A stretch of DNA of 64,000 bases from Ceratothoa steindachneri. Taxonomy: Eukaryota; Arthropoda; Malacostraca; Isopoda; Cymothoidae. This document shows, in pieces, positions 32,828 through 64,000 of this stretch. Positions within the stretch are counted from its first letter, which is position 1. The number at the start of each line of letters is the position of its first letter. Where the stretch lies: assembly GCA_963969495.1 (NCBI GenBank), contig OZ018323.1, forward strand, positions 72,078,920 to 72,142,919, in the 5' to 3' direction. The notes below the pieces were generated by a model. That model saw nothing but the letters and a program-made list of their open reading frames with translations, ran no database searches and was not told the origin of the DNA. The position numbers and the translations under genes were made by a program.

Positions 32828-34132
32828 TAATGGGTGTTACAATAATTTGGACCGATTTTAAATGTGAGTTAAGGTTAAGCGGCAAATGATTTTTTTCTTT
32901 TTTTTCAGATTTACCAACTTCAGTATTTAGTCATTTCAACCATGGAAAGAATAACAATCGAACAACGTGTTAAAGTTATCGAAGCCGTTTACAAAAATAG
33001 ACGTTCAAACAGAAACGCATTTCGGGCACTTCGCGATTATTTTGGTCAACATAATCAACCAACCGAGAGTGTAATTGGGAAATTCTTCGTAAATTCAAAC
33101 AAATGGGGTCAGTGGCAGATATGAAAATGCCATTGCGTGCCCGTCTACGCCGTTTAGCGGAAAACATTGCTGCAGTGCGCGAGAATGTGGCCGAAGATCC
33201 AGACACCTTTATTTGTCATCACGCGCAGGAATTGAACCTCTCCACAACAACGTGACATCGAATTTTGACAAAAGATTTGTCTCGACATGCTTACAAAATT
33301 CGATTGACACAAGAACTAACGACTGCTAACCATTTGAAGCGCCTTACATTCGTCAATTGGGTGCACGAGCATAGACCACCCGATGATAAATTTTCGTCAG
33401 AAATCATCTTTAGTAATGAAGTCCTTTTTCATCTTGGTGTATTCGTTAATTATGAGAATTGTCGCATTTGAGCTAATGAAAATCCCAGGAAGTTTGTTGA
33501 AAAGACACTGCATCCACAAAAGGTCACTGTTTGGTGTGCATTTATTGCTAGCAGAATCATTGGGCCGTATTTCTTCGAAAATGATGCCGGGAATTCTGTT
33601 ACGGTGACAGGCGAGCGATACTGTGCCATGATAACCAACCTTTTATGGCCAGAATGAATATTTTAGATGTCGAAGATTTGTGATTTCAACAGGATGGCGC
33701 CACATGCAACACACTCAATGCAACAATGGCTTTATTGAATGAGAAGTTCCCAATTTGCATCATCTCTCGAACCAGCGAGGTCAATTGTCCACCACGATCG
33801 TGTGACTTGACGCCTTTAGATTTCTTCCTTTGCAGTCATGTCTAAAGTAAGGTCTATGCTACCAAGCCAACAAAAATTCAACAGCTGAAGGATGAGATAA
33901 TAAGGCATATTGGTGAGATCGAGGAGCAACTATGCAGAGACGTCATAAAAATTTTGACCATCAAGTGTAGGTGTGCCGCCGAAGCCTTGACGTACATTTA
34001 GGCGATATTATTTCTCACACATGATTTCCATGACTCAAATAACATGATCCAATAGTTAAATCAATCAATTTCTACCAATAGCCTTGTTTTATTTACTGCT
34101 AACTTCGATCCGTCTTAATAGAACACCCTTTA
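32828..34132 (+). mobile_element. Mariner-type DNA transposon, about 1.3 kb, decayed
   Basis: Terminal inverted repeats are visible: left TAATGGGTGTTAC and right, read inward, TAAAGGGTGTTC, each preceded by TA as expected for Tc1/mariner target duplication. The size of about 1305 bp is normal for a mariner. The single transposase gene inside (separate entry) is broken. The same family is present at 56956-58199 in the opposite orientation, sharing the subterminal TTTAAATGTGAGTTAAG. Confidence 0.92.
32942..34002 (+). pseudogene. Mariner transposase, broken
   Basis: It starts at ATG 32942 with MERITIEQRVKVIEAVYKN and ALRDYFGQHN, an N-terminal helix-turn-helix of the mariner/SETMAR type. A frameshift follows SVIGKF. 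The catalytic domain continues with AEDPDTFI, HAYKIRLTQEL, FVNWVHEH, then IIFSNEV, where the first catalytic Asp is replaced by Asn. Next come VTVWCAFIASRIIGPYFFEN and, after more frame changes, FQQDGATC and SCDLTPLDFF. The second and third Asp are 41 residues apart (DD41D), the spacing I know from rosa-type mariners. Besides the frameshifts there are in-frame stops (TGA in place of a Thr/Leu codon near 33253, and in NCRI*A). Non-functional. Confidence 0.9.
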
Positions 34133-34134
34133 TA

Positions 34135-35229
34135 ATCTGCTGCAAAATTAACGCATTCACATATATGTCTTCCCCACTAAATGTAATAAATGATGACAAT
34201 TTGTTATTTTTCATATGGTTGTATTTGATATCAGTATAGTAGAATAAATTGATTTAGACTAATGACTGCAAATTTTCCTTTTGCTAAGATCGAAGTTAAA
34301 TGAACGATTCAGAAGATATAAAATCCTCGGTAGAATATTTTAACTCCAAGAAATATGGATTTTTATAACTTTGTTTTAAATATATGTTAATTTTTATTCC
34401 TATGTTCTTATTTTATCTCATTTTTGATTGAAAATGTGCACTTTCTCCAGTTTTCCTATTGGAAATTGAGAAATTTAAAATACTTTTATCCAAGTCGCAC
34501 AAAAAACTTGCAAGAATAAAAGACTTTTTCTATACTTTTTTGATATAACAATTAGGAAATAATACTTACCATCCCAGAATAAAAATCTATGACACATAGT
34601 GATTTTTTCACCTTTCCGATAGCCATAAAGTCACATTTGCATCACAAAACTTAAACGACGACGGGGCAAAGTGGGTGTCGGAAGCAGGATCTCCTACCTT
34701 TGAAATGTTCTAAAAGGAATTGGAAATGAAAATATGTAAATATAAATTACATTTCAATTTGAAAAGAAAAATATAACATCTTATGATTTTAAAATTTAGC
34801 AATATTTTGGAAGGCACAGTAAACTGAGTTGAACTATATTGAGAAAAATTATTAATTTTGAAAATCATTCGGTATTTCTTACATAAAATAACTCAGAGAA
34901 ATATGCTCTTTAACTATTTAAAAGGTAGTTCCCCATAATGACATCATTAAATCGGCCTCTAACAAACACGCTCATAATAGATTATCAACACCTGTAGGAC
35001 GCCGATTAATAATCCCCACTAAGACAAAGATCATGCCGCTAAAACACACCTTAACTTCATGGTAACACAGTTTTCCCCAAATCTAAGTAAAAGAATCCCC
35101 CTTTTCAATACAGGCAGGATGCATACTACCCTCAACGCAACATGCGCATACTACAAGTAAATATTACACTAAAAAATCTCAACCGTAACCTCGACCCATC
35201 ACTCACAGATATTTCCACTCTCACTTAAC
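34135..35229. other. AT-rich gene-free stretch
   Basis: Nothing recognisable between the mariner and the weak exon candidate. Confidence 0.5.
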
Positions 35230-35252
35230 ATAGCAAGCCACTGGCACTGGCA

Positions 35253-35456
35253 TTACCGACAGCGGTATCCGTCCAAACTGTAAACGGAACAAAAGTTGGT
35301 TAAATACATATTTGCAACATACCCAGCACAACCACAGCTAATACGAGTTCTCCTGATACACGGAGTGCAGCGAACCTGGAAGAAACCAATCCGGTCTGCG
35401 GAGTTCATCAGTACCTGCCAGGCATGTTGGTCGGGGGCAATTCCTGGGTAGTACAT
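35253..35456 (-). CDS. Weak candidate exon, Cys-rich, minus strand
   Basis: An open minus-strand frame of 67 codons in a locally GC-richer patch gives DQHAWQVLMNSADRIGFF followed by a cysteine cluster (RCTPCIRRTRISCGC and later NFCSVYS, GYRC). Acceptor-like CAG sites precede and follow parts of it (TACTACCCAG near 35446, TTTCTTCCAG near 35375), and a GTAATG donor look-alike follows GYRCR. It resembles no family that I can name. It could be a small exon, or chance. Confidence 0.15.
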   Translation of the reverse strand: MYYPGIAPDQHAWQVLMNSADRIGFFQVRCTPCIRRTRISCGCAGYVANMYLTNFCSVYSLDGYRCR

Positions 35457-35459
35457 AAA

Positions 35460-38400
35460 TAAGTAGGTAAACGGAGTAGCTATAATTTTAAACTGGTTCC
35501 AGGATTCTAAAGCAAAGAACAGTGAGCCTTTTTCTCTTTGTTAGTGTTTTCATTATTTGATTCTCCCCTTTTCTCTGCCTTGCAATCGGTGGAAATAATA
35601 ACCACAGACAGAGAACACATCATATATAATGAACCCAAATGAGAATTTTGGAACATAATGATTCTCTATGTTCATGAGTTGGCTATCAGAACATAATAAT
35701 GTAGAATCAAAAATGAACTGTTAGGAAGGCTATTTGTAACATTTAAGCCTATAGCAAGAAGTGTTAGCAGGTTACCTTAAATAATCAAAGTGGAAAAATC
35801 AGTAAATTGGTCCTACGCGATGCAATGCAAGCGTGTTATCATGTTTCAAAAATATTAAATCATTGACTCTAGTTTCACATCTAAAATTTATAAAAACAAG
35901 AACGAATTCCTTGCAAAGAAATATATCTGGTCCTAGAAAGAGACAAAATTAATTAATGGTTATTAAGAACGACAAATGTGGAACTCAACGGTTTTATTAA
36001 GTAAGCTAAAAACAGTTTGGTTTTGATGACTCTCTGTTGAATAAATATTTACCTACAATTAAATACTAAACAGTTAAGGGTATTCCTAACATAATTTTAG
36101 TACTCTTTACCAAACAGCCTAAATTTGGTGGAATTGGCTCTGATAAGGACCAAGCTTACAATTAAGCGATGTGCCAATTGCTTTTGTGTTCAAATCACCT
36201 CAAATAATCTTCTCGTTTGCCCTACGACGCTAGAAAATTTTCAATCAATTTTAATTCCTCTAGCTAGATCTTTATTAACAAATGTCTTTTTCAAACTATT
36301 CTAAAGTAGATACTCACATTCTGGTTTCTTTTATATAGTGAAAATACTTCTTTGAGTTCTTATGTTAGGTACTTTTGACACATTTTTACTTCCTCTAACT
36401 TCATCCTGATATACAAATGTCTTTAATTAAAATCGTGACATATAACTCCGTACGGATTGCCATTTCTTTTGTAAAAAAATAAAGTTATATTGGTTGCCAG
36501 ATTTTACATCTATATACGAAGAAACTCGTAATTTTTAGTAGTTTATTCAATTTTTACTCATTTTTTCTCTTTTTACTGCAAGTAAAATAGTAATAACATA
36601 TTTAATGCAATGAAACAACAACTGAATTCGGACCTGATTTAAATGTCAAATTAAAGAGAACTCTTTTTGGCAAAACAAGGTGTTTCTTACATTTTGACCT
36701 TTTGTGATAATCGCTTTTCAAAATCCCTCAAAATCTGTCAGATATAGCATGGGCAACCATGGTTTAACTGAAACCTAGGAGATTGCATGCCTACCATGCC
36801 AAAATGACCTAGAGGTGCTCGAAGCAGTGTTTTCCAATGTTTGCTATATGCTAACTTCACCACTTGTCTTGAGTTTATCGAATTCTACCCTCCCTTATCG
36901 AGTATTAATCGAATACACCAATGGGGTAGTGTTCCAAAAATACTTATACCATGCATTCTCTGGCTAAGCACAATGCCTGGACCCTAGAGCAGTTTTGGTA
37001 ATTTACTGCTATATACTATCCGCACCATCTTCCAAACATTTTTACTTCCTCGAGCTTCGGCACTTTTTTATAGAGATGGTCTTGTTGGTTTCCAATTGTT
37101 AGCTTTAAGTAATTTTAATACCCGAGTTTCACATATCCATGTGGTAAAAGAGCTGGAGGGATCCAATGGCAACTATCATACAACCTAAAAAAATGTAGTA
37201 ATACGATTTCTTTCCTTTTGATATTAAGAGATACTTCTGAAAATGTTCCTGTGAGAATCACCAAAGTACTGGTAATCGTAGCTTTTCAGTTTTGAGAGCA
37301 AAATCACTAGAGACTTCCAGGATGGTATTCTGCCATGAAGTTTCTAATAGAACAATCAGGAAGCAAAGGTCTTATTTCCCCCAAAAGAGATGGCCAGGAG
37401 CAAACAGACGCGTGGGAAAGGATATTAAATTTTAAATTTAAAATAATTCTGTCAAATATAGAGTAAGGTTAAAGAAGAGCAACTAATCAAATCGAAGAAC
37501 TATATCATATGATCAAGAAGTTTATAGTCGAATACGGGCGAGGTAACCTTTCTTTGCAAGCTAAAATATACTGAGTCTTGAAAAAATGCAATATTTTTTT
37601 TACCTTTATTGAGATGAAATAAAATTTTGCCTCCCAAAGTTCATTTGGACTAATTCAATTATGAATTCACATTAGAAATTTTAATTAACTCAATAAAATA
37701 TACCACCATTTTGAGCAACGCTTAAAATGATGTTATGGGCATGTGTTTTGAAATTGGCTAATATGTATTAGACACCATTATTCCACTTAATAAACCGTAA
37801 GAGTGCCTTTCAGTCATATATTTGGGAAAATAAAGGAGATAGAGTCTTCTTTTGGGCAAACTCCATCAAAGAGGTGAATTCGACATTTCAGGTTGGTGCT
37901 CAACCTGGGAGAAAGAGTGGACTATTGTCTTTAGCTTCCATCTTATGACAATAATCGATATAGAGCACCGAACTTTCTTTTCCAAAATTAATTTAGAGGA
38001 GATAATCAAATGCACAAACGCAAAACCTCGCTCATTGAAATGGGTTATTCCGATTAATCCGAACGTATAGACAAAATACAGAATACTTTGTTTAATCTCA
38101 TCGCTGCGCTGACCCTACCAGCAAAAATGGGGCTGTATATCGTTAATTTTATTTGGAGAATACAAGAAGAAAGAGATCAATTTATTTATATATAAATAAG
38201 AAGCAATTGGACAACCATGATCAAATTTTATTATTATTACTGGTGGAGTCTCTGACGAAGAATGAAAATAATATCCTTACGAATCATATACGCATAAACA
38301 ATATAAAATTATATAACAAGCATGAATAAGCAGCAAATATATTTTATGTATACTAAACAAAGGAATCCCTACCAAATTACTTTGCCTCTTACTGACCCTC

Positions 38401-40550
38401 TTGTTCTTTATTGCGGTTGAGATATTAATATATTATTATTTCTATTTTATTAGTAATATTGGTTAGTTTTGGTATTCTGTAGGTGGTAAGGAAATCAAGA
38501 GAGGGGAGTTAAGTCAAGGAAGGAGCAGAACGGTCTCTCGCTATTCTGCATACCTTAATATTGACAAAATAAGCTTCTAATAATAGGGAAGAACTTTAAA
38601 TTTCGAGGAATTACAATGAAATTGGGAGGAAAATAATCTGGTTTATTTTATTATTTAGCAAAGGAATATTATTGAGTAAAGCATTGGACCCTTTTTCACT
38701 CCTCACATCCTATTTGGGTTGGTATTTTGCTCGTATAAAGGAAAGTAAAATGCCATTTTCATCTTTGGTTTTATCATCGGACACAGTAGTGTATTCATTT
38801 ATAAGACAAAAATTGGGAATTAAGTTTTCTGATTGGAGAGAAATAATTATATTAGTAACATATTTTCCTCATACAAATGTCAATCTAATTAACATAATGG
38901 GAAAAGTCAACCTTTGAAGATGGTCAGTAAATTAGGTACAAACATAAAATTGGTTCATGACAAAACATAACTTCTAACATATATTATACTATTTTTACAC
39001 GACTCTTATGATTGATATTTTTTTTGTATCGCTCAAACCCTTACTCATGATAACCCGTCAAGACAACTTCATATTGACCAATATTCACACCTTTTTTATC
39101 AAAGTTTAGCCACTTTGACCCTACAAAAGATAAGCCTAATTGCATTAATCCTTGGAATTTGCCCTTGTAAATGGAAACTTATCATACTTTGCTCAGAAAA
39201 ACATGGGTAACTTTGACGTTGTTTCCCTTTAATACGAACACTACAGGTAAGGATTACTCGACTTATAGGCAAAGTTCTCATTAGTAGTTGGAAACATAAC
39301 CGTTGAAGGGCTGAAAATTCATATAATTTTCGTATTTGAAACGGCTATTCGAAGACATGGCCCAAAAGTATATTTTGAGAGGGTGCTTCTCGTAAATGCT
39401 AGAAATGTGTTCTTTTTTTTGGTATATTTGCTCCTTGGAGCTCAAATTGCCACTAAATTGTCGTGCGAAAAATGAAAACGATGCCGAGACCAAAAGATTC
39501 AGAGTCAATTGAACATTTTATTTTTTTTTTAAACATTCGGGAATTTTGACCCATAACATAATACCAAAACTTAATATGGCGACAGTTTTGTTAATTTAAT
39601 CCAGGGCAAAAAGGATTTGTTGATATACCTTAAAAAGGATGACATTGGGAAATATGGATTTTCATTATCGAGAGCATAAAAATTCCTTCCAGTTCAGTTG
39701 ATATTTGTCTGTGTATTGAAAGTTTTAAAACCCCAGCTGGTTCTCCATTTGATTAAAGTTAATGAATCTTATGTCGCCATGAGTGCCACTCGTTATTCGA
39801 AAGCGGGATAATGCCGGCGCTCATCGTCAACTCAAATCATTTTTTTGGGCAAATATATATGGAAGAAGCCGGTACACACGAAATGGGAGTAATCAATGCA
39901 GGGAGTCAATACATGCATCACAGCCCATTCCGTGTAGAGTGAGTGCACTAGGTCGGGAGATTTTTACGAAAATATGTGCATACGGTAGAACAGCAGCGAT
40001 GGAATGATGATGCAAATCAGGTAGGGGTCCAATTTGCTTTCGAGTAGAGGAATATTTCTTCTTCTATTCAACTAACATGCGCCACTTAAGGTTTTTCAGG
40101 TCAACTAGGCATAGGAAATCAGCTACTGCCCCTTTCATCCAAGTTAGTATCATTGTATCGTTTGCAGTCTATAATTTAAGACACAGAGCTGGCCTATTCT
40201 TTTTTCTGCAAAGTTCATCGGTATCTTGCTGATGGCTACACCAAATGTGACGAGAACCCGGTCTTTCTGATGAGGTAAACAAGTAGTAAACGGCTTTCTT
40301 GGTATTAGCTCATTATAAGTTTACACGAAATAAATCAGAATTCACCATTATCTGTGAATAAATACACTTACCAGAACTTGCTCTTCCTATTGCCCCTTCG
40401 AATCAGGAGGCAAGTGAATCGGAAGCATGAAGGAACGCTATGGACTTACTAAACCACACGAAAATCGGACTGCGATAAGGTGCACTCAGCTCAGACATTC
40501 ACCGTTGTTCGAACTCTACCTTCCGACACCATTTGTTCCCTTCCTCCTCA
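35460..40550. other. AT-rich gene-free stretch
   Basis: About 5 kb without a recognisable gene, repeat pair or RNA gene. Open frames such as 37852-38070, 38672-38917 and 39783-40007 show no conserved motif. GC rises gradually after about 39800. Confidence 0.45.
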
Positions 40551-42696
40551 AGAGAGTAATTACTGTATTTTGGCGTTCAGTAAACACGATGGCCTAAACC
40601 TCCCTCCCCGCACGTGTTTGTGACTTTATAAATAGCCTCGATGCAAATATCCCTTTTATTTAAAACGAATTAATTGCAGGCTTTGGGGAAAGGAGGTTTG
40701 CGGTCTAGCCCAATGCGGAACCCCGAGGGCAAGAGACATCTTGGATTTGGGCGGAAGTTACAACTTGCACGGGGGTTTCTAACCTACACAACGGGTCCGC
40801 CTAGGACCATAGAGGAATACACACCCGTCTCTATGTATGGTGGAAATAAATCTGAATAATCAAAACCCTTCAGAGGGGGCGGAACCCTCAGCTGGGGATC
40901 GTTGTTTCGGCCCCCAACTAGCGGCCCCACCCTCTTAGGAGCCCAACCAAGTACACACTCATTATTCCCCCTTCACCCCAGTCTCATTTTACAGGGCATG
41001 TTTGGCTGTGGGGCATCCTTCGCAAGGGTATCCAGTAAAATACCTCGCTCTTTAGACACGCTTAGACCATGGGTTGCGAGATCACCCTACGCACACTTCA
41101 CAAATCAAACACGAAACCCACGCTAACACACACGGAAATATTTTATCTCTCATGTACACTCCTCTCCCTCCCCCTCCCCCGTCGCGAATATTATTAATGC
41201 AAGCATTGGGCTGAGGCTGATTTTTGTCTAAAAAGGACACCCAGACTTTCCATACAAGAGCAAGCGATACCCTCACAACGAAGAAATGTTTTACCTCACC
41301 GCCAGACACCACAATTAAGAACCAAATCCGAGTACGACGTACCAGCCCCCTCTGGCTGGAGTTTAGCTCATAGGAGATACTCGCCGCCCTAAAAGAAGAC
41401 TACGGCGAAGACAGGTTACAGGACCTATATTACAAAAACAAAAGTCCTGGTCCTTAATAGCACAAAAAATGAGACAGATGTAGCTACAACATAACTTACG
41501 TCCACATCAATGCCTAAGGTGATACATAACAGGCCAACAGACTAGATCGTATAAATCTGATCCTGTCAGGTCTAAGTGCAATTTAAATGGTCACTTTTAC
41601 ACCGCATGCACAAAGATCATGCTCAGTTTTGCCAACTGTAGTGTGGCGCAAACGTCGCAGTGAGTTAAGGTCTCCATGCCTCAAATAGAAGCGTGGGAAC
41701 GTGATAGTGGGGCTCAGTAGGCCCCAATACACCTCTACATCAGACACGTTTACCACCTCCATCCCCAGTCACACTGCCCCACCACCACCGCTTACAAATT
41801 CTTATAATGCTGCTGTAATCCCGTACGGGGCGACCCCCGTGCATCCCCCAAGACTATCAATATGTTATACGCTGCTAACGGTCTAGGGCAAATTGTCTTT
41901 CTAGAGACACTTTTTGGCATTCTTATCCTTCTTAGTGCCTTCGCCGATGCGACTGTTGACGAATTATGCTGCGTTTTCATATTGTATCATCCATAGTTGA
42001 CTGCGCTTGATACTGGATTGGGGGTCCATTTCTCCTTCTCCAGGGTTTTGAAATCAGAGTATTTCCTTCTCTTAGGTGGATTGATGTCATGGCTATGAGC
42101 TCCACCTTCCAGTCTAACCGTGATACCCAGTCATGAAAGTAACCTCCTTAGTAAATAGTGTGGCGTAAAAAGAATCTGGATGGAGATTCGAAATGCTGAC
42201 CCAACGATTGCCGGGCAAACACGCTAACGACTATACTTGCTGGGAGGTAACTAACAAACGCACGACTACCGCTCCTACCAACACCAAGCACACGTAAACA
42301 CCATACATGCAAACACTATAAGCCACGACACCATTCATACCAGCTCCCACGTCCCTCAACTGTACTACCCTGCCTACCTACGAGCTCCCTACCTCCTTCC
42401 ACTGCCCTTTCTGTCTTTTGTGCCGCTCCCTCAGTTTCCTCTCCTCTCACCACTCCCATCTTCCCTGTAGTCAATTGTATTCCTTATCCAGACCCCTCCA
42501 TCCCTTCAATTGCTGCTCCTGTTCCGCCTTCTTATGTCCCTATCATTTCCCTTACATCTCCTATTCCTCTTCGTGTCCTAACCCCTTTTCACGACGATCC
42601 TCCACTAGATCTTTTTCTTTCCCTGTCCCTCCCATTGCTTCTTCAGACGCTACTGTAGCCTCCTCTAGCGCCCATTACGCTTCTTCGTTTGTTCCT
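40551..42696. other. GC-richer unassigned block
   Basis: Base composition is distinctly more GC- and pyrimidine-rich than the neighbours, with many short overlapping open frames on both strands (for example 40902-41126 plus and 41082-41312 minus). I recognise no transposase, RT or domestic gene in it. It holds the SINE-like box pair at 42183-42233 and runs into the 21-bp minisatellite. Confidence 0.4.
42183..42233 (-). promoter_or_regulatory. tRNA-like A and B boxes of a probable SINE
   Basis: On the minus strand TAGTCGTTAGCGTG (42233-42220) resembles a tRNA A box/D arm (consensus-like AGTGGTTAGCGTG), and CATTTCGAATCTC (42195-42183) resembles the B box (GGTTCGAATCC). Between them is TTTGCCCGGCAATCGTTGGG. 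Spacing and order are right for an internal RNA polymerase III promoter of a tRNA-derived SINE. The cloverleaf is not intact enough to call a tRNA gene. SINE ends were not located. Confidence 0.5.
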
Positions 42697-42906
42697 GCCT
42701 CATCTCCCATCGACCCTGACCCTACTCTCATCGATCCCGTCTCCTTTTCAATCGATTCTGTTTCCACCGCTTTTAGTCCTGCCTCTGCTTTTATCGGTCC
42801 TCTCTTTTCCCCTCTCAACTCGGCCTCTTCTCTCCTCGTACCTGTATCCTCCTCTATCGACTTCGTCTCTTCTCTCATCGTACCCGTCTTTTCGTTAATC
42901 AATCTT
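42697..42906. repeat. 21-bp minisatellite, about ten units, open in several frames
   Basis: Ten consecutive 21-bp units beginning at GCCTCATCTCCCATCGACCCT. Later units such as GTCTCTTCTCTCATCGTACC plus C keep the pattern. Because 21 is a multiple of three, translation gives heptads: on the minus strand ETGSMRE-like units (EKTGTMR, EETKSIE, EDTGTRR, KETGSMR, VGSGSMG), and on the plus strand Ser/Pro/Val-rich units. The 183-aa plus frame at 42418-42969 and the 75-aa minus frame at 42675-42902 both owe their openness to this array. I regard it as a minisatellite, while allowing that it could be the repetitive part of a real exon. Confidence 0.85.
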
Positions 42907-42969
42907 CTCCTCTCTCTCGCTATCAGACTCTTCCCTTTTTTATCTTTTTCCTTACCCTACCCATCCTGA

Positions 42970-45900
42970 TCATAATCCTCCCCTAGATCTTCCCCCACTA
43001 AATCCTTTCCCTTCTCCACCATCTCACACTCCTCCAACAACAGTCCCTATCCCTTTTTATGATCACCCCACCCTTACCTGCAGACACCATCTCCACCACA
43101 CCCTACACAGACTACTTACTATACATAACACACACCAACACTTGCAGACTTCTCGGGGGAGGCTCAAAGTTTATCGGTGGGTGATCCCCGACTGTACGCA
43201 AACGTACTCTACCAGCGTCTCGCTGTGTACGATATGTGTCAGATAAACCCCAGCAAAAATATATTTGCTCTACTTGAATAACCTTTAAACAAACTATCCT
43301 CAGAACACACAACACCTGCAGTTACACAAGCCACACACAACATCTCCTCTTAGACCTCTTCTGTGATTCACACCACCTTCCTACCAAAAGCCCCACCCCA
43401 TCCCGGTGGCCTTACCACTTCAAAAAAAGAACATAACACCATCTTCACTTAACCCAATAGAGACAGCCACATGGCATACTAGCACAACACTCGCAAAAGT
43501 GGTCGTATAAGCATCACTACCCGTTACATAAGGTCCCAAGGGAGGAATCCCCCGTTAGTGCGTTAGGCTCCAATTCCAAAATGCGGCAGTATACCACATG
43601 GCGTAATTAACCAACACGTACACAAGAGTTGTCCATCCAAACACCACGTTCAACACGACTTTCCGGAGATAAAACACACGTTAAACAACACTTGAACTTT
43701 TCTCCAGCATCACAAAGCAGCGTCCGAAGGTACGTGCCTTTCTCCCTTCCGATTAGTCTCTTCTTCTGACGATCCAGTCATGAGACACACACAAACACAC
43801 GATAATACCCATAAGTACCCTCCGCATCGTTGTATACCTAATGAACTATTCACTCCTGCTCTCTCTCTTAAGTTTTGTTCTGAACTGCTCGTCTCTTATT
43901 AAATGATCTTCTGTGCTCATACTGTGATTCCTCTTTTTTATTTCTATACGCAGATACGATTCGATTAGAAATGAATAGGAGGAGAAATGCAATTAAGTTT
44001 TTACAAGGAACGGTCTTGAAGCATCCCGTTGGGGGAAAAGGTTCGGTCCTATTGAGTGCACTTGTAACGTGAACAAGTGGCTTAGATACGGAGTACCAAA
44101 TCTTCTCGAATTTCACCAAGAATAGTTTTAATTCACACTTCAAATCCTCTATTAGCATTGCGGTAGGGGTGTTTTTATTAGCTTCACTCTTGGGAGAAGT
44201 AAACTATATGATCATATCGGTTGTTTCCGGTACGTGGCTAAAACGAACTCCGAGTGGTAGGGAGACATGTGTGTTTCAGCTGTATCTGGTGCAAGAGATG
44301 CTTCAAGACTGGCTCACGAAGGAAATCGTCGCTGAAAGAAGCGTTAAGTGTATAATTGAGGAAAAGGAATTCACGTAGTAACTCTATTGGTTTCATGTCG
44401 GGAAAGCTTTTACTTCGTTTGGACCTAACGAAAGAAGTTGTTCGTGTGTGCGTATTTTATTTTATTGATCATATATCTATGGAACTTGATAATTGTCGTG
44501 GAAGCTTTAATCTATAAATAAGACTTGTACTCAAGGAGAAGTAGAGATGGTATTTATAGTTTTCGATATGGGAGGGATTAGACTCTTCTATAGTCTCCAT
44601 CGCACGAAATTATTATTATACTTTTGTGTAAAAAAATTGACTAAGGTGTGAAACGTACAATCGACCTTTATTTCAAACCAACGACCATAGAAATGAAGAT
44701 ATTTTCGCCAATAAGTGAACCAAAGGACTTAGGCTTCCTCTAAAATACAACTGCTAGCTCTAAACTGTATGCCAGCACAACCAGCTTTATCTACTTGATT
44801 CGCTACTGGTTATTCTTGAATTTTTGATACCATTGAATATATACTCTTTTTACTTTGGAATATAGTAAGAAAAGAGATTGGATTTCGTGATTTATTATAG
44901 AAATAATAAATCGATTAACTATAAGAAAAATATTAAATCAATAAATGGAATAATCTTCATTTAGAATTTCTATTACAATTTAACTGCTTTGAGTGCATTG
45001 AATTCTTTCACTTGACTTTACTTGCAGTAGTATAAAAGTACTCTAAATGTATTCGAAAAGATAATGGAGATTTTGGCTGTATGAACACGGTTGTGGATGG
45101 GCAAATTGAATTAATTAATGGACATTATTTTCAGGAACGTGGAAAAGTGCAGGGTAAATCAATGAGTTAACAAGGAAGAGGAGGTCGTCTCATACTTTAT
45201 GAATGAGCTTTTGCGGCTCCTTCATATGAGTATTCTTCAATATGAGTACTTGAATATAAGTACTCTTATGAAAAGAGGTTTGTTGCGCTCTCTTGCTCCC
45301 TTCTGAGGTGCTGGAGGCTCGTCCAGAAATTTCTTTTGGTCGTACGGAAAGGCTTCTTTCCGGAGATGTATGGTAGCTCATCTGGAAAAAGGTGAAGGAG
45401 GGCTTACCCGACAACATCAATAGAGATAGTATATCTATCGAGTTCATGATATATGTAATAAATAAAATTTTGTCGTGTTCTAGTTGCTGCCAAAGAAAAC
45501 TGGAGGGTATGATGCTATTCATTTCGAAACGATTTCAAACTTTAATATAAACAAACTTTTGGATATATATCTTATATAAGTGCAGTAAATTAAATTTCTT
45601 AAATGAATCGTTACATTTATAAAAGATTACTTCAAGGATCTAAATGCAAATGAAGAGAGAGACAAACAAATTATTTTGGATTTAACTTTGACTTATGAAT
45701 AAAGTTAGTAGAAAGTATAGACGAGGCGATAATCTGAAAAGCTATCACAACATAATTCGATTCAATTTAAATTTTCTGTAAAATTTTGTGAGAGCTCTTA
45801 ACTTATTTTGAATTTTATATCTAGTAATTATGATGGCTTTTTGCGCCAACAATAAACTTTTAAATTTGCATGATTATTTTAAACGTTGTAAATTTCAAAA

Positions 45901-46579
45901 AGAAATGCATAATGATCTCCAGCGTTTATTTTTACGATAAGTAAGGAAATAGTACACGATAACTCTAGAATATCTACTAGCTCAAATTAGAGTGTAAAAT
46001 GTGTAAAGGGTGAAATAGAATAGAATATAAGCGAAGGTAACCGATTATATTAAAATTCATGAACAAGTAATAATGTTGAAAATACAAACCACTCTCTTTA
46101 ACACGGTCAATTTGTTAAACGCATAGTAAAAATAGGAAGAAGGAAATATGAAGAGTAACTTGAGTCCTTGTTATGACATTTAGTAAGCTAATTAGAGAGT
46201 GCTTGCATAAGATCCGTCAAAGTGCCGTTAGTGTCCATAGAGATGATCCGAATCATTGGTAAAGATATTTACTGCACATTATGTAAATGTTCATACCGTC
46301 GGACATAAAAAAACATGTCTACAATACGAGACGTAATCAATTTCAATAAAAACTCTATGTTTAGCCATGTTTAAAAATCAACTTTTACTTATTTTAATAA
46401 GTTTCAGTATAATTTTACATACCTTTTCACCTGGAATAGTTGTAAATCATAGCTATTTTGGTATATGAGGTATGAAGCATTGCCTCATAGGGCTTTAAAT
46501 TTTGTGGCCAAAAGCACCAGTTTCGGTGTACTTGGATAATGTTTTATCTATAAATTCTTATTTAAACAAGATAAAGGCA
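42970..46579. other. Unassigned: GC-richer to about 43.9 kb, then AT-rich
   Basis: No recognisable gene. Medium open frames (43868-44158 minus, 44169-44378 plus, 45190-45522 minus) have mixed composition but no motif I know and no supporting splice context that I trust. Confidence 0.4.
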
Positions 46580-46870
46580 GTAAACCTGAAAGTATGTCAG
46601 ATCCAGTAGCTCTGCTAATGTTTGGTACACCTTCATACGGAAAGGAAGTTATTGGGCGTATCTGTGTTTGAAAATTCGTCTGTCACAACTTAGGGTTAGG
46701 TTTTAATGAATATACTTGATACATGGAAAAATACAGATAATATTACCATTGGTATTGACCCTACATCCTGTGACAGTAGATTTCATAGAGAAGCTGCTAC
46801 ACTGCTAGAGAAATTGCTGAACAAAAATCTTTTATATCTCGCCTGCAGAGATCATATCTTGGAAATCCTA

Positions 46871-48162
46871 GTACAGGGTCACGCTCCAAGAACGGGAATG
46901 CACACACTTTTGGTGATATATCCTTTATTCATTCACTAATCACCCTTAATTGGAGGACATGACAGATGCAATGCCTGTTAACACAACTAGATCTTAACGT
47001 TGTGTTGAATATACTACTGCAAACATTACTACTAGACAGGCTAATTCAAGAAAGAGCAGGACACTTTCGTGCATCAGGTCAAATGTGTAAATGCCCCCTC
47101 CAAGAGAAGAATTCAGGACTGGGTGGACCACTTTGAGAACTATGACAACTGTCCATGCCATTGAGGATGCCCCAGAAAGCGTACAGCAGAGCTGGTCCAA
47201 AACGCTTTGTGTGCAAGCGAGGTCAGGCCGTCGGTATCTCCCGTGAGACTTGCAGGGGAGTGCTAGTAATGAATGTAAAGGCCTAGCCAAACACAATACA
47301 GACGAAGCAGACACATACAGCTTCAGGCAAGTTGAAGAGAAGGCATATGGCAGTCAAGATACTGGAGAAGATTCAGGAGACCCCAACTTTCCTTAACCTC
47401 TTTTGGACCTCAGATGAAGTTCACTTCCATCTTGAAGGAAAGGTAAACTCGAAGACAAATGTCTTATAGGGAAACTTCAGACCAAATGAGGTAGCCAAAA
47501 AGCCCCTACGTTCCCCTTAGTTCACGCTATGGAGTGCAATCTCAGCAAGATGCATCATCGGACCATTCTTCTTCGAGGAATCTGGCGCGACAGTGATAGT
47601 CACCAAGGAGCGATATATTGAAGTCCTCAAAACCATCAAGAGAGAGCTGCAGACCCTGTTTCAGTCGCTTATGGGGAAGTTCTAGTTCCAGCAAGATGGA
47701 GCAAGCTATCACACCTCAAACCTGTCCCGAAATTGACTGAAAGAGATCTTTGGTGGCCGTGTGATCAGTCTCAAGACTGATTTTGAGTGGGCACCTCACA
47801 GCCCAGATATCAGCCCCCCCTAGATTTCTTTCTCTGGGGCAACTTTAAAGCCAGAGTGTGCGTAGAGAGACCCAGGACCATAACGGAACTCAAGGAAGCT
47901 ATGAGAGCCATTAGTTGGTCAGTTTGTAAGGATGTCATGGACATTTTGTGCTGCACCTCAAGAGATACACAAAGCTAAATGGAGGTTATCTCCAAGACGT
48001 GCTCTAGAATAAATACGAAAACTACAAAGACTCTCATGTTTTGATATGATGTTTTAAATAAAATAAACTAGCTCTTACCAAAGTTTTATTCAATCCTTGA
48101 AGAAAAATAAGAAATGAGGCCTATCGAAATTTAGGGCCCGTTATATTTGGGTGACCCTGTAG
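46871..48162 (+). mobile_element. Mariner-type transposon nested in the repeat-family ORF
   Basis: Left end GTACAGGGTCAC and right end GTGACCCTGTAG form terminal inverted repeats, and each is flanked by TA (46869-46870 and 48163-48164), the expected target duplication. Length is about 1292 bp. The TIR sequence differs from the 32.8/57 kb family, so this is a separate lineage. It inserted into a Leu codon of the host relic, and its removal with one TA leaves the host frame continuous (HILEIL then VDFRFK). Confidence 0.92.
47060..47975 (+). pseudogene. Mariner transposase, broken
   Basis: Recognisable pieces in order are RRIQDWVDHFENYDNC (helix-turn-helix region); KILEKIQETPTFLNLFWTSD running into DEVHFHLEGKVN (first catalytic Asp); WSAISARCIIGPFFFEE; VTKERYIEVLKTI; FQQDGASYHTS (second Asp); WAPHSPDIS; and, after a C-run frameshift at 47814-47820, LDFFLWGNFKARV. 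Correcting the C-run gives 41 residues between second and third Asp (DD41D). There are stops (such as VL*GNF and SRN*LKE) and a damaged N-terminal half. Non-functional. Confidence 0.88.
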
Positions 48163-49024
48163 TAGTCGACTTTCGTTTTAAGCTGTTTAGGAAGATGAGG
48201 GATGCAGATATTCTCTGTTCGATATCAAAAGCAAAAGGATAAAGGAAAAACAACATCATTAAATAAATAGTCAAGTATATTCTAACAGAGGAAAGACTTC
48301 CAAAATTCGACTACAGAGAAATCGCTGAACTGACTGACGGTCATTGTTCTTTGAAGGAGGCATCATCGCGACTTTTGCTGATGTCCATCCAGCGACATTT
48401 TCTGGCTAGATGGATGAGCAGATGTTCTTAATTATAATGCTGGTGCTTGCATATAAATTTGACTACGATTAAGAAACTCTATTAAGCTGGAATGACTCAA
48501 CACCTTTGTATTGTTCTACAATTCTATATAAATGTCATTGTTTGTTTCACATGCTTTCTTGAACTCTCTGAGTTTATGTAATACGGACATGTTGAAGTAC
48601 TAAAAAACTACCCCCTAGATTGCTGTTACATTCGTTAATAAGATGAAAAACTACAAATAGTATTTAAAATAGGAAGATGTGTCATTCAGCATGTTCAATA
48701 ATAGATTGAGTACTACATTGAAGCAGGAAATTTCTGCGCAATTACTTGCCACTGAGAAGCAAACAGCTTAAGATCAGTAAAGAATTTATTCTAGGAAAAC
48801 ATATCTAAGACAATTCTAGTTGAACTCATTAGCCCAGAATCACATGTCCTGCTAGACACCATGGACATTGGATCCAAGTGTCTTAAGCAACCTGTCACGT
48901 CTCGGCCGCAAAATGAAGACCACATAAAGGCATTGGACTATGTTAAGAATCTGAAAGCAGTGAATAACATTGCTGAATGTGGTATCAATTTAGTGAGAGA
49001 CTTTGTATTTCTCATGTAATAAAT

Positions 49025-56955: not shown

Positions 56956-58199
56956 TAAAGTGTGTTCCAGTAAGACGGATCAAGGTTAGAAGTAAATAAA
57001 ACAGTGTTATTGTTGAAAATTTATTGATTTCACTATGGATCATGTTATTTGAGTCATGGCAAAGCTTCGGCGGCACAACTCCACTCGATGGTCAAAATTT
57101 TGGATGACGTCTCTGCATAGTTACTCATCGATCCCACCAATATGCCTTATTTTCTCATTCTTCTGATGTTGAATTATTGTTGGGTTGTTGGCATAGAACT
57201 TACTTTTGAGATGACCCAAAAGAAAGAAATCTAAAGGCGTCAAGTCACACGATTGTGGTGGCAAATTGACCTCGCTGGTTCGAGAGATGATGCGACCTGA
57301 GAACTTCTCATTCAATAAAGCCATAGTTGCATTGACTGTGTGGCATGTGGCACCATCCTGTTGGAACCACAAATCCTCGACGTCCATAGAATTTAATTCA
57401 GGCCTTCAAATGTTGGTTATCATGGTATGATATCGCTCGCTTGTCACCATAACATAATTCCCGGCATCATTTTCGAAGAAATACGGTCCAATGATTCCGC
57501 TAGCAAAAAGTGACCTTTGGTGGATGCAGTGGCTTTTCAACAATCATCCTGGTTTTTTTTGTCAGCCCAAATGTAACAATTCTGCTTATTAACGAATCCA
57601 CCAAGATGAAAATGAACTTCATCACTAAAGATTATTTTTTCCCCAAAATCATCATCGGCTTGACTTTGCTCTGGCATCCAATTGACGAACGTACGGAGCT
57701 TCAAATCGTAAACAGTTTTCAGTTCTTGTGTCAATTGAATTTTGTAAGCGTGTAGAGAAAAATCTTTTGTAAAAATTCGACGTAACATTGTTGTGGAGAG
57801 GTTCAATTCATGCTCGCGATGACGAATAGAGGTGCCTGGATCTTCGGCCATATTCTCGCGTACAGCAGCAATGTTTTCAGCTGAACGGCGAAAACAATAG
57901 CGTTTTCATACATGCCACTTACCCCATTTGTTTTAAATTACGAACAATTCTCCCAATTACACTCTAGGGTGTTCGATTATGTTGACCCAAAAAATCGCGA
58001 AGTGGCCGAAATGCGTTTCTGTTTGAACGTCCATTTTCGTAATAGGCTTCGATAACATTAACACGTTCTTTGATTGTTAATCTTTCCATGGTTGAAATTT
58101 ACAAATACTGAAGTTGTTAAATATGAAATAAAAAAAATCATTAGACGCTTAAACTTAACTCACATTTAAAATTGGTTCAAGATATTGGAACACTTTTTA
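56956..58199 (-). mobile_element. Mariner-type transposon, second copy of the 32.8 kb family
   Basis: Plus-strand left end TAAAGTGTGTTCC and, read inward on the minus strand, right end TAAAAAGTGTTCC form the terminal inverted repeats. A TA precedes the left end; on the right it has mutated to TT. About 1244 bp. The sequence is homologous to 32828-34132 throughout but inverted relative to it, and the two are well diverged, so they are independent old insertions. Confidence 0.92.
57110..58090 (-). pseudogene. Mariner transposase, broken, minus strand
   Basis: From ATG 58090 it reads MERLTIKERVNVIEAYYENG, PLRDFLGQHN, then (57851-57537) AEDPGTSIRHREHELNLSTT, LHAYKIQLTQEL, FVNWMPEQ, IIFSDEVHFHLGGFVN with the first catalytic Asp intact. 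The last open part (57387-57121) has LWFQQDGATCHT and SCDLTPLDFFLLGHLKSKFY. The second and third Asp are 41 residues apart (DD41D). Between these parts are stops and frame changes. This copy preserves all three catalytic Asp residues, unlike the 32.8 kb copy, but its frame is broken. Confidence 0.9.
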
Positions 58200-58454
58200 T
58201 TTGGGTAACAGAAAGAATTCCTGGAATTCCTCAACCCTCTTCTGCAGCGCCAAACATAGGACTACGCAACTTTAAAAGGCCTAGTAGCAACTGCGGCGCC
58301 TACGAAGAGGCTAGAAATAAACGGTAGGCAGAGAAAAAAAATCGAATAACATTAATCGAAGCAGCATTGGAGAAGTTCATATGGATGTCTCAGAATTCTT
58401 TGTTCTACCCGTGGAAGAAATAATGTATTAGTGTCGTAGAATTGCTCATAGTCT

Positions 58455-58902
58455 GGTCCAATAATTGTTCTAGTCCTTGATCTGGAAATACCGCTTTTGT
58501 TTAAGCCGGTGGTATTGCCCCTATGACTCAATCCTACGATCATATATATATTTATATATATAGGTAGGCTTTAATTCCTACTGAACGTGTGAAAGCTGGT
58601 TAGAGGCGGGTTGTGCCGTAGCCAGGATTCTCACATTAAAGTCCCACTTGTTACTGGGGGTAGGTTTGTGATTGTTGAATTCTAAGAGTGCAAAATACAG
58701 GTTGGATAAAGTTGCCGAAGGGATGCTTAATTAAAGTCTTTCCAAGGATACGTCAAAAAGGAGGTGCCACAAATAAACACACGTACAAAAATAAACTTTA
58801 CTTGACACAAAAAATAATAATTATTAGCAAAAGTTAAACGGTCATTTAGGGAAATAAGGATTAAATATTAAACACTGACGTTAAGCGTCTAGATTTATAA
58901 TC
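58455..58902 (-). repeat. 3' LTR remnant of the gypsy-type element
   Basis: About 448 bp collinear with 61626-62121 (both begin GGTCCAATAATT, share CCGCTTTTGTTTAAG, CTGGTTAGAGGCGGGTTGTG and CACAAATAAACACACGTAC, and end near AGATTTATAAT). In element orientation this is the LTR part following integrase. The homology stops inside the LTR, and integrase begins within a few bases, so the U3 part of this LTR and the end of pol have been deleted together. It includes a short AT tract at 58543-58561. Confidence 0.85.
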
Positions 58903-58908
58903 ACTCCC

Positions 58909-59985
58909 TTACAGGAGCTCAAATGGGGTAAATCCGATGGTCCTATGGGGAATTTCGCGGCATGCGAATAACGCAACCTGCAAATATCGGTGCCATTCTT
59001 GGGGTTGTTCCATGCAAAGCTTGTCGAGGACGCTTTTCAAGGTCGCATTGAACTTTTCGCACATACCGTTCGCGCTCGGAGGAAAGGGGGTGGTAAAAAT
59101 AGGTTTGATTTGGAGCAGGGTGTTCACGTGTTCCATGAGCTCAGAGGTAAACTGGCGGCCTCTATCTGACAAGATTTCTTTGGGCAATCCTACTTTAGAA
59201 AAAATGGAAATAAGGGCTTCAGAGCAAGAGATACTCTCGATCCTTTTTAGAGCGACAGCGTCTGGGAATCGGGTAGCGACGTCTATCAGGGTTAGTACAT
59301 GCGTATGACCTTCGGCGGAAGGGGGGTGGATTGGTCCGATGAGGTTGATGGCGACTCTCGAGAAGGGCTCCAAAATGACTAGGGTTCTTTGCAGGGAAGT
59401 TGGGGCTATTCGACCTTTTGCAGTGGTTTTCTGGCACAAGTCGCACGTTTTGCAGAATTCTGCAATATCTTTGGCGTCACCGGGACCGAAAAAGTATTTA
59501 AATACTCGCTGAGAAGTCTTGTTATGACCGAAATGACCGGCCTAGGACTTTCATGTGCTACTCGCAGGATTTGGTCCACATGTGTTCGCGGAATACATAT
59601 TTACTTGGAAGGTGGGTCTGACTCATCTCGTGAGGTGCTAAATAGAAGGGAGTCGTTAATGATGTACCTTATGCGTCGGCTCCCTCGAACGATCACCTCT
59701 TCGTTCTTTCGGGCCTTTTCCCAAAGGCAATGAAGTAAAGGGCAGCTCTGCTGAGCTCTGAGGAATTGTGCATTACTCGTTTAGACCTCTAAGGGGGCCT
59801 CTGGGGTAAACAAGCGCGTTGGGAGAGAGGCCTTGTGGCTAGCTTGCGCTCAAGTGACGACAGCTTGAGTCACTTCACTCGGAGAGAGTAGTGCGCTCTG
59901 GCCAATGAGTACCGAGCAAAATTTGATGGAGGCTGCCACTACGTCAGCCGACATAGTGAAATATTTACACTGTACATGGTAGCGG
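58909..59985 (-). pseudogene. Ty3/gypsy integrase with upstream linker, truncated
   Basis: After a linker with FCSVLIGQSALLSPSEVTQA and RAQQSCPLLHCLWEKARKNEEVIV comes, following a frameshift near 59548, the HHCC zinc domain (AHESP...AGHFGHNKT...FCKTCDLCQKT). Then come LTLIDVATRF, LSDRGRQFTS and NGMCEKFNATL. The catalytic triad is Asp, Asp, Glu with 35 residues between the last two, as in integrases. The C-terminal half is lost: the protein runs GFTPFELL and stops at TAA just before the LTR remnant, where the family would continue with LYGR. Cut-and-join activity is impossible from this copy. No RT or RNase H sequence lies between protease and integrase. Confidence 0.9.
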
Positions 59986-61307
59986 ATTACCAGGAATCTA
60001 TTTTCTCAACCCAAGAAGTCGTTTACAATTGCGTACTTCTTATGTTGGGGGTCGTCAGGGGGAAGCAATTTGTCCGACACCACAATGCATGTGCACCCGG
60101 TGTCTCTGACGAGGGTAGACACTTTACAGCCATTGATCGAGCCGGTTTTAAAATTTAGTCCTCCGGGGGTACTTTTGTTGAACAGGAAGTTCACTTGAAA
60201 TTCCTGTGGGGATGGAGACGAGGGGGATGACGTAAGCGTGGCCGGCTGTTCCGGGGAAAGGGTAGCAGTTACTTGGTGGACTTGTTGGCTCTGGGTGGGA
60301 CGTAGGCTAGAATTCTGTACATATTGGGACTTAAAATGGCCGGGGGAACCGCAGGAGTAGCATATAACCTGCTTATTCTGGTGCTGGTTATTGTAGAAGG
60401 TATTGAAGACTGGGGGGTTTCTGTCTTTTTGGGCTACAAAAGGCGTATTCTTTGGCCTGAAAGGGGCTGTGGTCTTTATCAATGGAGGGGGTTTCCTTTG
60501 TTGGGACTTCCATTGACTAAATTTATTCTTCGGGGACGGGGGACTATTCTTCCGGGTTTCCTTTGGGTATAGGCGATGACTTGTCGCATGGAGATCCACT
60601 TCCTCGAGGCATTCTTGGAAGGTAGACGCTCAGGGGTCTTGCACAAATGCTCGCATCTCCTTGGGAAGGGTCGACAATAGCTGGTCTTTTAACATAAAGT
60701 CAATCAGAGCCTCATACTCCGATTCCACTTTGGAGGATTCTAACCAGAACTGGAGGTTTCGCTTTAGGATATATCCAAAAGGTCGGTAAGTTTGACCGGG
60801 CTGGATTTTAGCCGATCTAAACTTAGCGTGGTAGAACTGAGGGTTCAAGTTGAAGGCGGATAGCAATTCGGCCTTCAAGGTGCTATAGTCTATTGTAGCT
60901 TCGTGTGGTAACGAGATGAAAATTTCTCTTAAGCGCAGCCTGAGCAATGGGAGCAATCTACTCACTCCTTCGGATTCTAGGGTCCATCCGTTTACGTCGA
61001 AGATCTTTTCAAAATGTGTCAAGTATGAGCACAAATCTTCTTCGTCTTTATATTGGGAAAGTTTCATAGCGGGGACCTGGGGTTGATGATAACGGGATCC
61101 AACAGAACTGACTTCAACTTGGTCTCTGCTTAATTTCCTTTCATGTTTTAGAATCCTTTCTCTTTCTTGCATTTCTTCTTTTCTTACCTCCATTTCACGT
61201 GCTCTTTCCTCTCGCTGTTCGCTTTAGACGAATTCTTTTAGTTCCTGTCCTGTGAGATCGAGAGCTTGTCCTTGCTTGACGAAAACTTCGAACGATTGTG
61301 AAGCCAT
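59986..61307 (-). pseudogene. Ty3/gypsy gag-protease ORF, with nonsense codons
   Basis: I place the start at ATG 61307 (MASQSFEVFVKQGQALDLTG), upstream of the longest open part, because that frame is coding and only interrupted by TAA near 61229. The core 61193-60630 has a charged coiled-coil start (MEVRKEEMQERERILKHERK), then LCSYLTHFEKIFDV, RSAKIQPGQTYRPFGYILKR and DQLLSTLPKEMRAFVQDP, as in SCAN/retrotransposon gag. A TGA at 60632-60630 interrupts the same frame, which resumes to 60006. The zinc knuckle CYSCGSPGHFKSQY (about 60362-60321) has Tyr for its last Cys. The protease motif VRDTGCT (about 60107-60090) follows, then a TGA at 60008-60006. The frame continues past it into the linker before integrase. 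Confidence 0.88.
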
Positions 61308-61595
61308 TGCTGCTCTTGCTGACGCAACTGGTGACTCACGAAAGAACTTACGCACCTGGTAAGAGAACTAGAAGCTGCGATTTTTCCTAACCGATACAAT
61401 CTAATAATTAACCCACAAAATAATGAATATTTTCCTAGCTTTGTTTTTGCTATCTGGAAAGGGTTATTAATGGTTATTATTTATATTCCTTCGGGAAATA
61501 GACTCTAATTATTAAAATTTTCATTAGTATATTTTGGCTTTCTTGGACGTTGGCAAGTTTTAGGCTATATGAGTTCGCTTCCCCCAAAATTTAAA

Positions 61596-61613
61596 CGCTT
61601 AAAGCTGACACCA
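61596..61613 (-). promoter_or_regulatory. Primer-binding site, probably tRNA-Leu
   Basis: On the minus strand TGGTGTCAGCTTTAAGCG starts at 61613, just inside the 5' LTR homology. TGGTGTCAG is the start of PBSs complementary to the 3' end of metazoan tRNA-Leu as I recall. Nine bases agree and the rest do not match the commonest isoacceptor. It lies 13 bp inside the edge of LTR homology, a little more than usual. Confidence 0.6.
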
Positions 61614-61710
61614 CTTTTATATATAGGTCCAATAATTATTCTAGTCCTTGATCTGGACACACCGCTTTTGTTTAAGTTGGTGGTATTGACCTAATGACTT
61701 AATCCTACGA

Positions 61711-61713
61711 TAA

Positions 61714-61787
<74 letters not shown>
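61711..61787. repeat. (AT)n microsatellite inside the 5' LTR
   Basis: About 77 bp of alternating AT with one ACAT. The 3' LTR remnant has only about 19 bp at the homologous position, so the tract expanded or contracted after insertion. Confidence 0.95.
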
Positions 61788-61789
<2 letters not shown>

Positions 61790-62599
61790 GTAGGCTTTAA
61801 TTTCTACTGAACGTGCAAAAGCTGGTTAGAGGCGGGTTGTGCCGTAGCTAGGATTCTCACTATAAAAGTCTCACTTGTTACTGGGGGGAGGTTTGTGATT
61901 GTTGAATTCTAAGAGTGACAAATACAGGTTAGATACATTAGCCGAAGGGATGCTTACTTAAAGTCTTGCCAAGGGTACGTCAAAAGAAAGGCGCCACAAA
62001 TAAACACACGTACTCAAAATAAACTTTACTTTACACAAATATAATAATTAGCAATAGTTAACAGGCAAAATTAAGGATTAAATATTAAACACTGATGTTA
62101 AGCGTTTAGATTTATAATGACTCAATGGGGGAATCAATCAGGGTTAATTAAATAGGTAATTTGAGAATAGAGAGACACTAGGTTTACAGATTACCATTAA
62201 TTGATGGATTGGAGAGACGACTACTCGGGTCCAGACGGGGTGGTTCGGGTAGCGTTAACACGAGTTCTCGGGGAAAGGAGGGATAAGAGGACGGGTTCGG
62301 GGCTGCTGGCTGCAGTTCCAGTTAGTTCACTCATAACTGGATGTGACACTAACAAATAGTAACTTCCAGTAACTATTTGGATGTTCCTTTTCTTACTCAA
62401 GTTACGTTGAGCAACAGAGCGTACTCTTCTAGTCACAGACTCTGCGGGGCGGGATTTACTTACAGCAACAATTTGAGACACCGATCAAGTTGGATTGACG
62501 GCGCGTTGGCAGTCGATACGTTACGGCAACGACTCTCGTTCAACGTGAGGATTACGCGAGTAGGTTTGGGACACTGCTGTAGAGGGATGAACGGCGTTA

Positions 62600-62609
62600 T
62601 TATTTATAC
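62600..62609 (-). promoter_or_regulatory. TATA box of the 5' LTR
   Basis: Minus-strand GTATAAATAA in the inferred U3, oriented toward gag, about 1.3 kb upstream of the gag ATG. Confidence 0.4.
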
Positions 62610-62645
62610 TGCGGACTGTGAGAAATCAAGAGAGGATTCCATTCA

Positions 62646-64000
62646 CTAAAATTCGCTTATCGCAGCGCCTTCTGGACAATCTCTATGGTATCATAAAGAA
62701 GGCAAATAGAATTTAGGCTTCTCTGTGAGATAGGCCTTCTTTCGTCAGATTTCCTGTCGCCCGTTGGGGAATGGTGGGGGGGTCGGAGTGACAGGAGACG
62801 AAGGTCAACTCAAACGACAAATTTCTTTTGTTCCCACGATTGTCTGGTGGCATGCGAGTATGTACGTTCCATACCCTCACAATATACGAATACAGTTATG
62901 AGAATAGTTTTCGACATTTGTAAAAATTATATTTTTGCAAGATCATGCTTCATAAAAAGCCAAGCAGTTTAAACTTTCAAAGTAGTAATAAGGAACCTGT
63001 ATGACTAGACTGAGAAATATTCCCTTAAGAATTATGTAAAGATTATTTCTGTTTTGTTAGAAATAAAAAATATAAAGTATATACAAATAAATAAATGCTC
63101 AATTTCTGTAAGTTTTTGCGCCATTGAGAAAATAATTGCGAGTGACATTCTGGGCGTTTATATTTTTACCAATAACGATGATAAAGTACATAAGCTGAGC
63201 TTAGGCTCTGCATTGAAACCACACATTGGTCCTCTTTTTGGTAAATTCTACCATGATGTATCGACTATTATTTGGAAATCTAGGATAAAATTATCCCTCT
63301 GCTTTAAGGATTTTTCAAACTTAAAGTTATTAAACAGTTAAAAACAAATGCATCGCCCGTTTTTCTTCAAATCTAATGGCAACTTCCATTCTTTCTTTTT
63401 CTGACTTGGCTTAGATAACATCAAAGATTAATTAAGAAAATAGTGTGTTCTCGTTAATTACACATACAACATTTGTCAATGCATAGAAACTTGCAAAAGT
63501 AGGTATGAGTAGTATTTAGGTACATGCTAATTCAGACTACTTAAGAAAGATGGTGGAATTTGTTCTTTAAATAATTTCTTATTAGTAAACTTACCAAAAC
63601 TTTGTGTAGTTAAATAGATGGAGTACAATGTAGAGCTAATTGGAGAGGAAGCAAATGGATTGTGGAGTAATTTTACGTTATCCAAATGTTGCTCTCATAC
63701 TTCCAAACTGAAGAGTATTAATTTGATTATAATACTCCTCTAAGAACTACGGAGAGCATATAATATTATTTAAGATAAATATGTTGAAGTTTACCGAGAA
63801 TGATGAATAAGGAGACGTACGTCATATGTGAACTGTGCCTCAACTCTTTGCGATGGTGCCATTTGAGATAACAATCATAAATTTATGGCCTTATAAAACG
63901 GGAAGGAATAGCTCAGCATATCCACAGATTTCCCATTAATGCCAGTAATAATTACAGTAGTAATGCGGATAATATAACTAGTAGTATAAACGTTATAAAA
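62646..64000. other. Unassigned stretch to window end
   Basis: GC-richer to about 62880, then AT-rich. The open frame 63054-63341 (LEIKNIKYIQINKC... VYIFTNNDDKVHKL) is 95 codons with a fairly protein-like middle but matches nothing I know. No repeat or RNA gene noted. Confidence 0.4.

Follow-up and report, generated by a model that had tools for sequence, protein, structure and literature searches.

A 3′-deleted Ty3/Gypsy element from a family of Gmr1-like gene order in the isopod Ceratothoa steindachneri

Passages of three papers describe the Gmr1 clade as Gypsy elements whose integrase (IN) lies upstream of the reverse transcriptase (RT) (PMC3587641, PMC8220671, PMC6238403). For crustaceans, passages of PMC3587641 report Gmr1-like elements in shrimps, a prawn and a spider crab, and call GyRex4, GyRex5, Gychoro2, GyMaja1 and GyLiva4 the first Gmr1-like elements described from protostomes. 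Furthermore, parts of PMC4592553 and PMC3424704, which discuss the SCAN work of Emerson and Thomas 2011, tie the SCAN domain to the Gag of Gmr1-like elements.

Here we describe an LTR element in a stretch of 64,000 nucleotides of the C. steindachneri genome (the window). With high confidence we assign it, by gene order, to a Ty3/Gypsy family of the Gmr1-like kind, of which it is a defunct copy carrying a deletion. Its features are as follows.

58432-62881, minus strand: whole degenerate LTR element, its LTR ends placed against relatives
62881, minus strand: 5′ end of the element (TGTGAGGG), from LTR alignment with relatives
61626-62881, minus strand: 5′ LTR, from direct repeats and comparison with relatives
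61598-61613, minus strand: putative primer-binding-site-like stretch beginning TGGTGTCAGC, called by sequence and compared with relatives
60630-61223, minus strand: Gag fragment, with a sub-threshold SCAN-like match (PF02023) at 60636-60839
60327-60365, minus strand: CCHC zinc knuckle (nucleocapsid, NC), PF00098, 21.0 bits against a cut-off of 20.8
59898-60104, minus strand: putative protease (PR), DTG to LIGQ, split by a stop, called by motif only
59871-59909, minus strand: stretch LIGQSALLSPSEV, named as linker by the sequence-only reading
59542-59897, minus strand: PR-IN linker, interrupted by stops and shifted in frame in the window copy
58912-59541, minus strand: integrase up to FELL, comprising an H2C2 zinc domain and an rve core (Pfam)
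58904-58906, minus strand: deletion junction, about 3 bp of overlap between both sides, from alignment to relatives and a genome search
58432-58906, minus strand: remnant of the 3′ LTR, its last ~475 bases, from direct repeats and comparison with relatives
58432, minus strand: 3′ end of the element (CTACGACA), from LTR alignment with relatives

The sequence-only reading had rightly recognised an element at this site, and its bounds of 58455-61613 give way to a true reach from 58432 to 62881. The direct repeats pair 58455-58906 with 61626-62123 at 89-96% identity, and the 5′ LTR of the window copy lacks the terminal ~23 bases, though these are kept in relatives. Two LTRs with TG...CA ends (TGTGAGGG...CTACGACA), as expected of Ty3/Gypsy elements, are directly observed in the relatives. 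The 16 bases of the putative primer-binding site are identical in 9 of the 17 relatives with a readable site, changed in 7 and unrelated in one (L027). The window 5′ LTR also contains an AT dinucleotide repeat (61711-61788), and some relatives carry far longer AT runs at the same place or nearby. Beside the element, on the minus strand at 57121-57905, two open frames resemble by eye a mariner-type transposase; they are a candidate only, with no Pfam match at E 0.01.

From high to low coordinates the window copy reads Gag, CCHC knuckle, DTG protease motif, linker and integrase, with no RT between, and stops interrupt Gag, protease and linker. Gag (60630-61223), NC/PR (60006-60629) and the linker (59850-60005 and 59601-59780) are stop-to-stop pieces of one minus-strand frame, as the sequence-only reading had said; its distance of about 0.55 kb from DTG to the integrase zinc domain compares with a measured 0.56 kb to the IN open frame, which starts at 59541. 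The window integrase lies in a different frame from the linker. Taken in isolation, this copy would permit an in-frame deletion of RT and RNase H from a canonical Gypsy element (PR-RT-IN), bringing PR beside IN, as well as the earlier proposal that RT follows integrase in this family.

The relatives within the same genome distinguish the two. We queried the assembly (3.93 Gb, 529 contigs) with the window integrase, retained the best 150 scored places (the window's own included), and took as relatives 20 stretches of ~10 kb spread down the list of matches. All 20 were found to have the order NC/PR, IN, IN C-terminus, RT, and Gag lies ahead of NC/PR in 19, the exception (L024) having this region deleted. 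From where the PR match ends, IN follows after 447-505 bp in 20/20 copies and after exactly 468 in 11; only the linker had been predicted to lie in this gap, which is too short for RT. Furthermore, we paired by coordinate (≤6 kb) the best 150 hits each for protease, RT and integrase: 36/36 PR to IN, 32/32 IN to RT and 33/33 PR to RT pairs are in this order, with start-to-start distances of 648-675 bp for PR to IN and 1305-1367 bp for IN to RT. The arrangement that would contradict it, RT between PR and IN, was found in none of the 20 sampled loci, and no pair among the 36, 32 and 33 from the best 150 hits each is reversed. With IN directly after PR and RT after IN in every sampled relative, an in-frame loss from a canonical Gypsy element is very improbable. 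The family thus has IN upstream of RT, as in Gmr1-like elements, and not RT between PR and IN as in canonical Gypsy elements; because the relatives share the PR-IN-RT order, it is a family trait, and ~3.0 kb is missing from the window copy.

The domains downstream of integrase are of Gypsy type. In addition to the RT seen after IN in 20/20 relatives, Pfam places RVT_1 downstream of IN in 4 of 5 copies scanned (E 5.1e-24 to 9.1e-29), with none found in the fifth piece (L009). RT_RNaseH follows RT in 9 of 11 scanned copies (5/7 in one scan, 4/4 in another), which bears out the prediction that RT and RNase H come after integrase; Pfam found no RNase H in the pieces of L030 and L036, the latter ending upstream of the RNase H position known from other copies. 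The two best PDB chains for the RNase H region are near-equal, Ty3 (7q5b) and 4ol8, titled reverse transcriptase/ribonuclease H and presumably that of Ty3. The window integrase matches Integrase_H2C2 (3.3e-10) and rve (6.6e-9) in Pfam, and its nearest solved structures in a PDB search are foamy virus integrases, followed by Ty3. Gypsy-type IN, RT and RNase H are all found, RT and RNase H in relatives only and absent from the window copy. A Ty1/copia element would have PR-IN-RT as its normal order, identical to the one observed. Copia-type RT is Pfam RVT_2; the relatives have RVT_1 with RT_RNaseH, Ty3 is among the two best solved chains, the integrase resembles those of foamy viruses and Ty3, and the Gag of relatives is SCAN-like, so that the chance of a copia element is negligible. 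The position of the first catalytic Asp is Asn in the window integrase and Asp in 9 of the 11 relatives that have a residue aligned to it. Scanning viral contigs with the integrase found no relative, and phage records gave no match.

The reading frames suggest how the family was built. In one relative (L036), NC/PR, IN, the IN C-terminus and RT all lie within one natural open frame 1127 aa long, and three others (L023, L032, L038) have Gag and NC/PR within one open frame. In 8/20 relatives the five queries all have their best match in the same frame; in the other 12 they do not (in L024 only four queries matched), which we attribute to decay. In copies whose RNase H frame is open, it closes near 6990, ahead of a 3′ LTR start near 7280, so no envelope fits. 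We read the family layout as LTR, Gag (SCAN-like capsid and CCHC), protease, integrase, reverse transcriptase, RNase H, LTR; gag and pol share one frame, and there is no space for an envelope gene. The family presumably worked as other LTR retrotransposons do, the protease cleaving a single polyprotein, a tRNA priming reverse transcription, and integration producing a 5-bp duplication.

The putative retropepsin is called on its DTG motif only (codons at 60096-60104, minus strand); a PR piece from a sibling copy had no match in Pfam or PDB, and Asp_protease_2 is matched weakly (E 0.015) in one homologue, P0087. The stretch LIGQSALLSPSEV had been proposed as the PR-IN linker: it does lie before IN, and its start is better read as part of the protease, whose C-terminal motif we take it to be.

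For the Gag fragment, the SCAN match (PF02023) is at E 1.1e-4 and 22.3 bits, below the curated cut-off of 27, and the Gag of one relative (L010) likewise stays under it at 19.2 bits. SCAN exceeds the cut-off in two database relatives, P0107 from the mantis shrimp Oratosquilla (48.6 bits, 7.2e-13) and P0132 from Batillaria (35.4 bits). Both are predicted protostome proteins with SCAN in Gag, an IN C-terminal piece and then RT. SCAN in the Gag of mantis shrimp and snail relatives, with the IN C-terminus before RT, bears on the origin of the SCAN domain. The CCHC knuckle was matched (zf-CCHC) from the open frame 60009-60629. The predicted Gag fold (mean pLDDT 58.5, pTM 0.35) was too poor for a fold search. 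Against PDB, Gag gave 23 weak matches, the best a histone demethylase (E 0.042), with zinc finger protein 24 at E 0.52 in a chain we take to be its SCAN domain; a search for Gag homologues found one protein.

Relatives also occur in other animals. For an IN-RT piece of L010, the best named matches among the best 120 of 182 are Eriocheir sinensis and Homarus americanus; Oratosquilla, snails, gobies and a sea cucumber are further named ones among the matches listed. IN and RT were both matched in 67 of 133 database proteins taken from the matches listed, with IN first in 67/67; because one of the queries behind this set itself spanned the IN C-terminus and RT, this confirms the order, but not independently.

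The alignment with relatives shows the deletion junction directly. Internal matches stop at 58904 in 19/20 relatives and at 58906 in the other (L034); alignment to their 3′ LTR starts at 58906 in 14/20 and at 58878-58901 in 6, the LTR resuming ~760 bp from its start. The join of the integrase FELL to the LTR interior, earlier placed at about 58903-58909, is thereby fixed at 58904-58906. Relatives that have no indels in this region (L026, L027, L029, L037, L038) carry ~3.0 kb between the two sides, comprising the IN C-terminus, RT, RNase H, the polypurine tract (PPT) and the first ~760 bp of the 3′ LTR. Allowing up to 3 mismatches, the junction sequence has a single occurrence genome-wide, and we therefore take it to be private to the window copy and not a derivative that has spread. 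The IN C-terminus, RT, RNase H and 5′ part of the 3′ LTR were apparently lost in one private event of ~3 kb, which may have happened inside one insertion or between two adjacent ones. The 3′ deletion of the sequence-only reading is thus upheld by the junction, while its placement within one insertion is left unproven by flanks that do not match and LTRs that diverge.

Indeed, the 9.8% difference between the window LTRs, together with the lack of a 5-bp duplication, raises the possibility that they come from two insertions, the 3′ LTR remnant deriving from a separate insertion of this family that was linked to the first by deletion or recombination between two copies. The 5-bp flanks of the window copy differ (TATAT and CTAAT), so there is no target-site duplication, while 7 of the 10 relatives with both ends placed have an exact one (L021, L024, L027, L029, L033, L034, L037); however, L022 differs by one base and L032 and L036 have no match, so that 3/10 relatives also lack an exact duplication. 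One of the seven, L027, is not a clean case: its LTR end and 3′ flank are doubled (oriented 1700-2397 and 8413-9130, 92.6% over 718 columns), the second flank copy lying directly after the upstream LTR and ahead of the internal part, and this locus was rearranged after insertion. The window LTR-LTR distance, 0.098 over 328 sites, exceeds that of all 15 relatives measured (0.016-0.068, L027 included; L024, L025, L031, L035 and L036 gave no usable pair) and falls inside the range between different copies (0.019-0.124, median 0.066). Nor are the window LTRs each other's nearest (rank 29 and 31 of 36) or sisters on a tree built from aligned LTR parts only. Yet among all LTRs only 16/32 have their own partner as nearest neighbour and the tree is star-like, and the window PR-linker region is also distant from relatives (median 0.085), as would be possible for one old insertion whose duplication has eroded. 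Given this weak support and the distance of the window copy elsewhere too, we regard one and two insertions as about equally probable.

The family is large. The exact PPT-LTR junction occurs 370 times in the genome, compared with 0 for a control, and 11 of the 19 relatives whose 3′ LTR start was placed keep it, which together suggest ~640 comparable copies, a rough figure given a sample chosen by integrase similarity. The candidate counts of 30,000-49,000 from a first look are loose and are not copy numbers. Three equal-score protease hits ~10.6 kb apart (C3:95963295, 95973904, 95984508), each with a PPT-LTR junction 3.5 kb on, look like a tandem multiplication of a stretch holding one copy.

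We also found copies with integrases shortened or missing. In 9 of the 33 PR-RT pairs (best 150 hits each) the distance is 694-1355 bp, compared with the usual ~2015, and all nine, fetched as L041-L049 (contigs C11, C3, C7, C2, C3, C7, C14, C8 and C5, respectively), lack from a third to all of the integrase. In L032 coordinates, L042-L044 have common breakpoints near 4570/5655 with ~7-8 bp of joint overlap, and L045-L047 near 4598/5432 with 13 bp. Because neither set groups on a tree of neighbouring sequence (L022 left out), we tentatively suggest, as a possibility somewhat doubtful at present, that the family repeatedly loses integrase via the same deletions, either by recurrent template switching during reverse transcription or through integrase-less derivatives spread in trans and recombining with full copies.

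Taken together, these results settle a question of gene order from a broken copy and extend, by a large family, what is recorded of an arrangement unusual among Gypsy elements, opening no new question of principle. The Gmr1-like order is already known, crustaceans included, and the window family is a further member by gene order. The crustacean GyRex4, GyRex5, Gychoro2, GyMaja1 and GyLiva4, as presented in passages of PMC3587641, are Gmr1-like with IN upstream of RT, as here; GyRex4 (RT/RH) and GyRex5 (INT) are separate non-overlapping fragments, whereas the window family is known from long copies, the comparison being by description. LGF3 of the annelid Lamellibrachia luymesi, an invertebrate Gmr1 family in a passage of PMC8220671, belongs to a clade described there as having the same order and is likewise likened by description. 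According to parts of PMC11117352, Gmr elements of Tetraodontiformes have a joint Gag-and-Pol product of 1506-1634 aa, and gag and pol are also in one frame here; they measure 6.1-6.5 kb with LTRs of 337-518 bp, in contrast to ~7.5-7.7 kb with LTRs of ~1.25-1.4 kb for long copies of the window family. Finally, the IN and RT/RNase H of Ty3 (PDB 7q5b) are related by sequence to those of the window family, but in the Ty3 chain the RT/RNase H match (791-1008) precedes the IN match (1111-1319), the opposite of the order found here.
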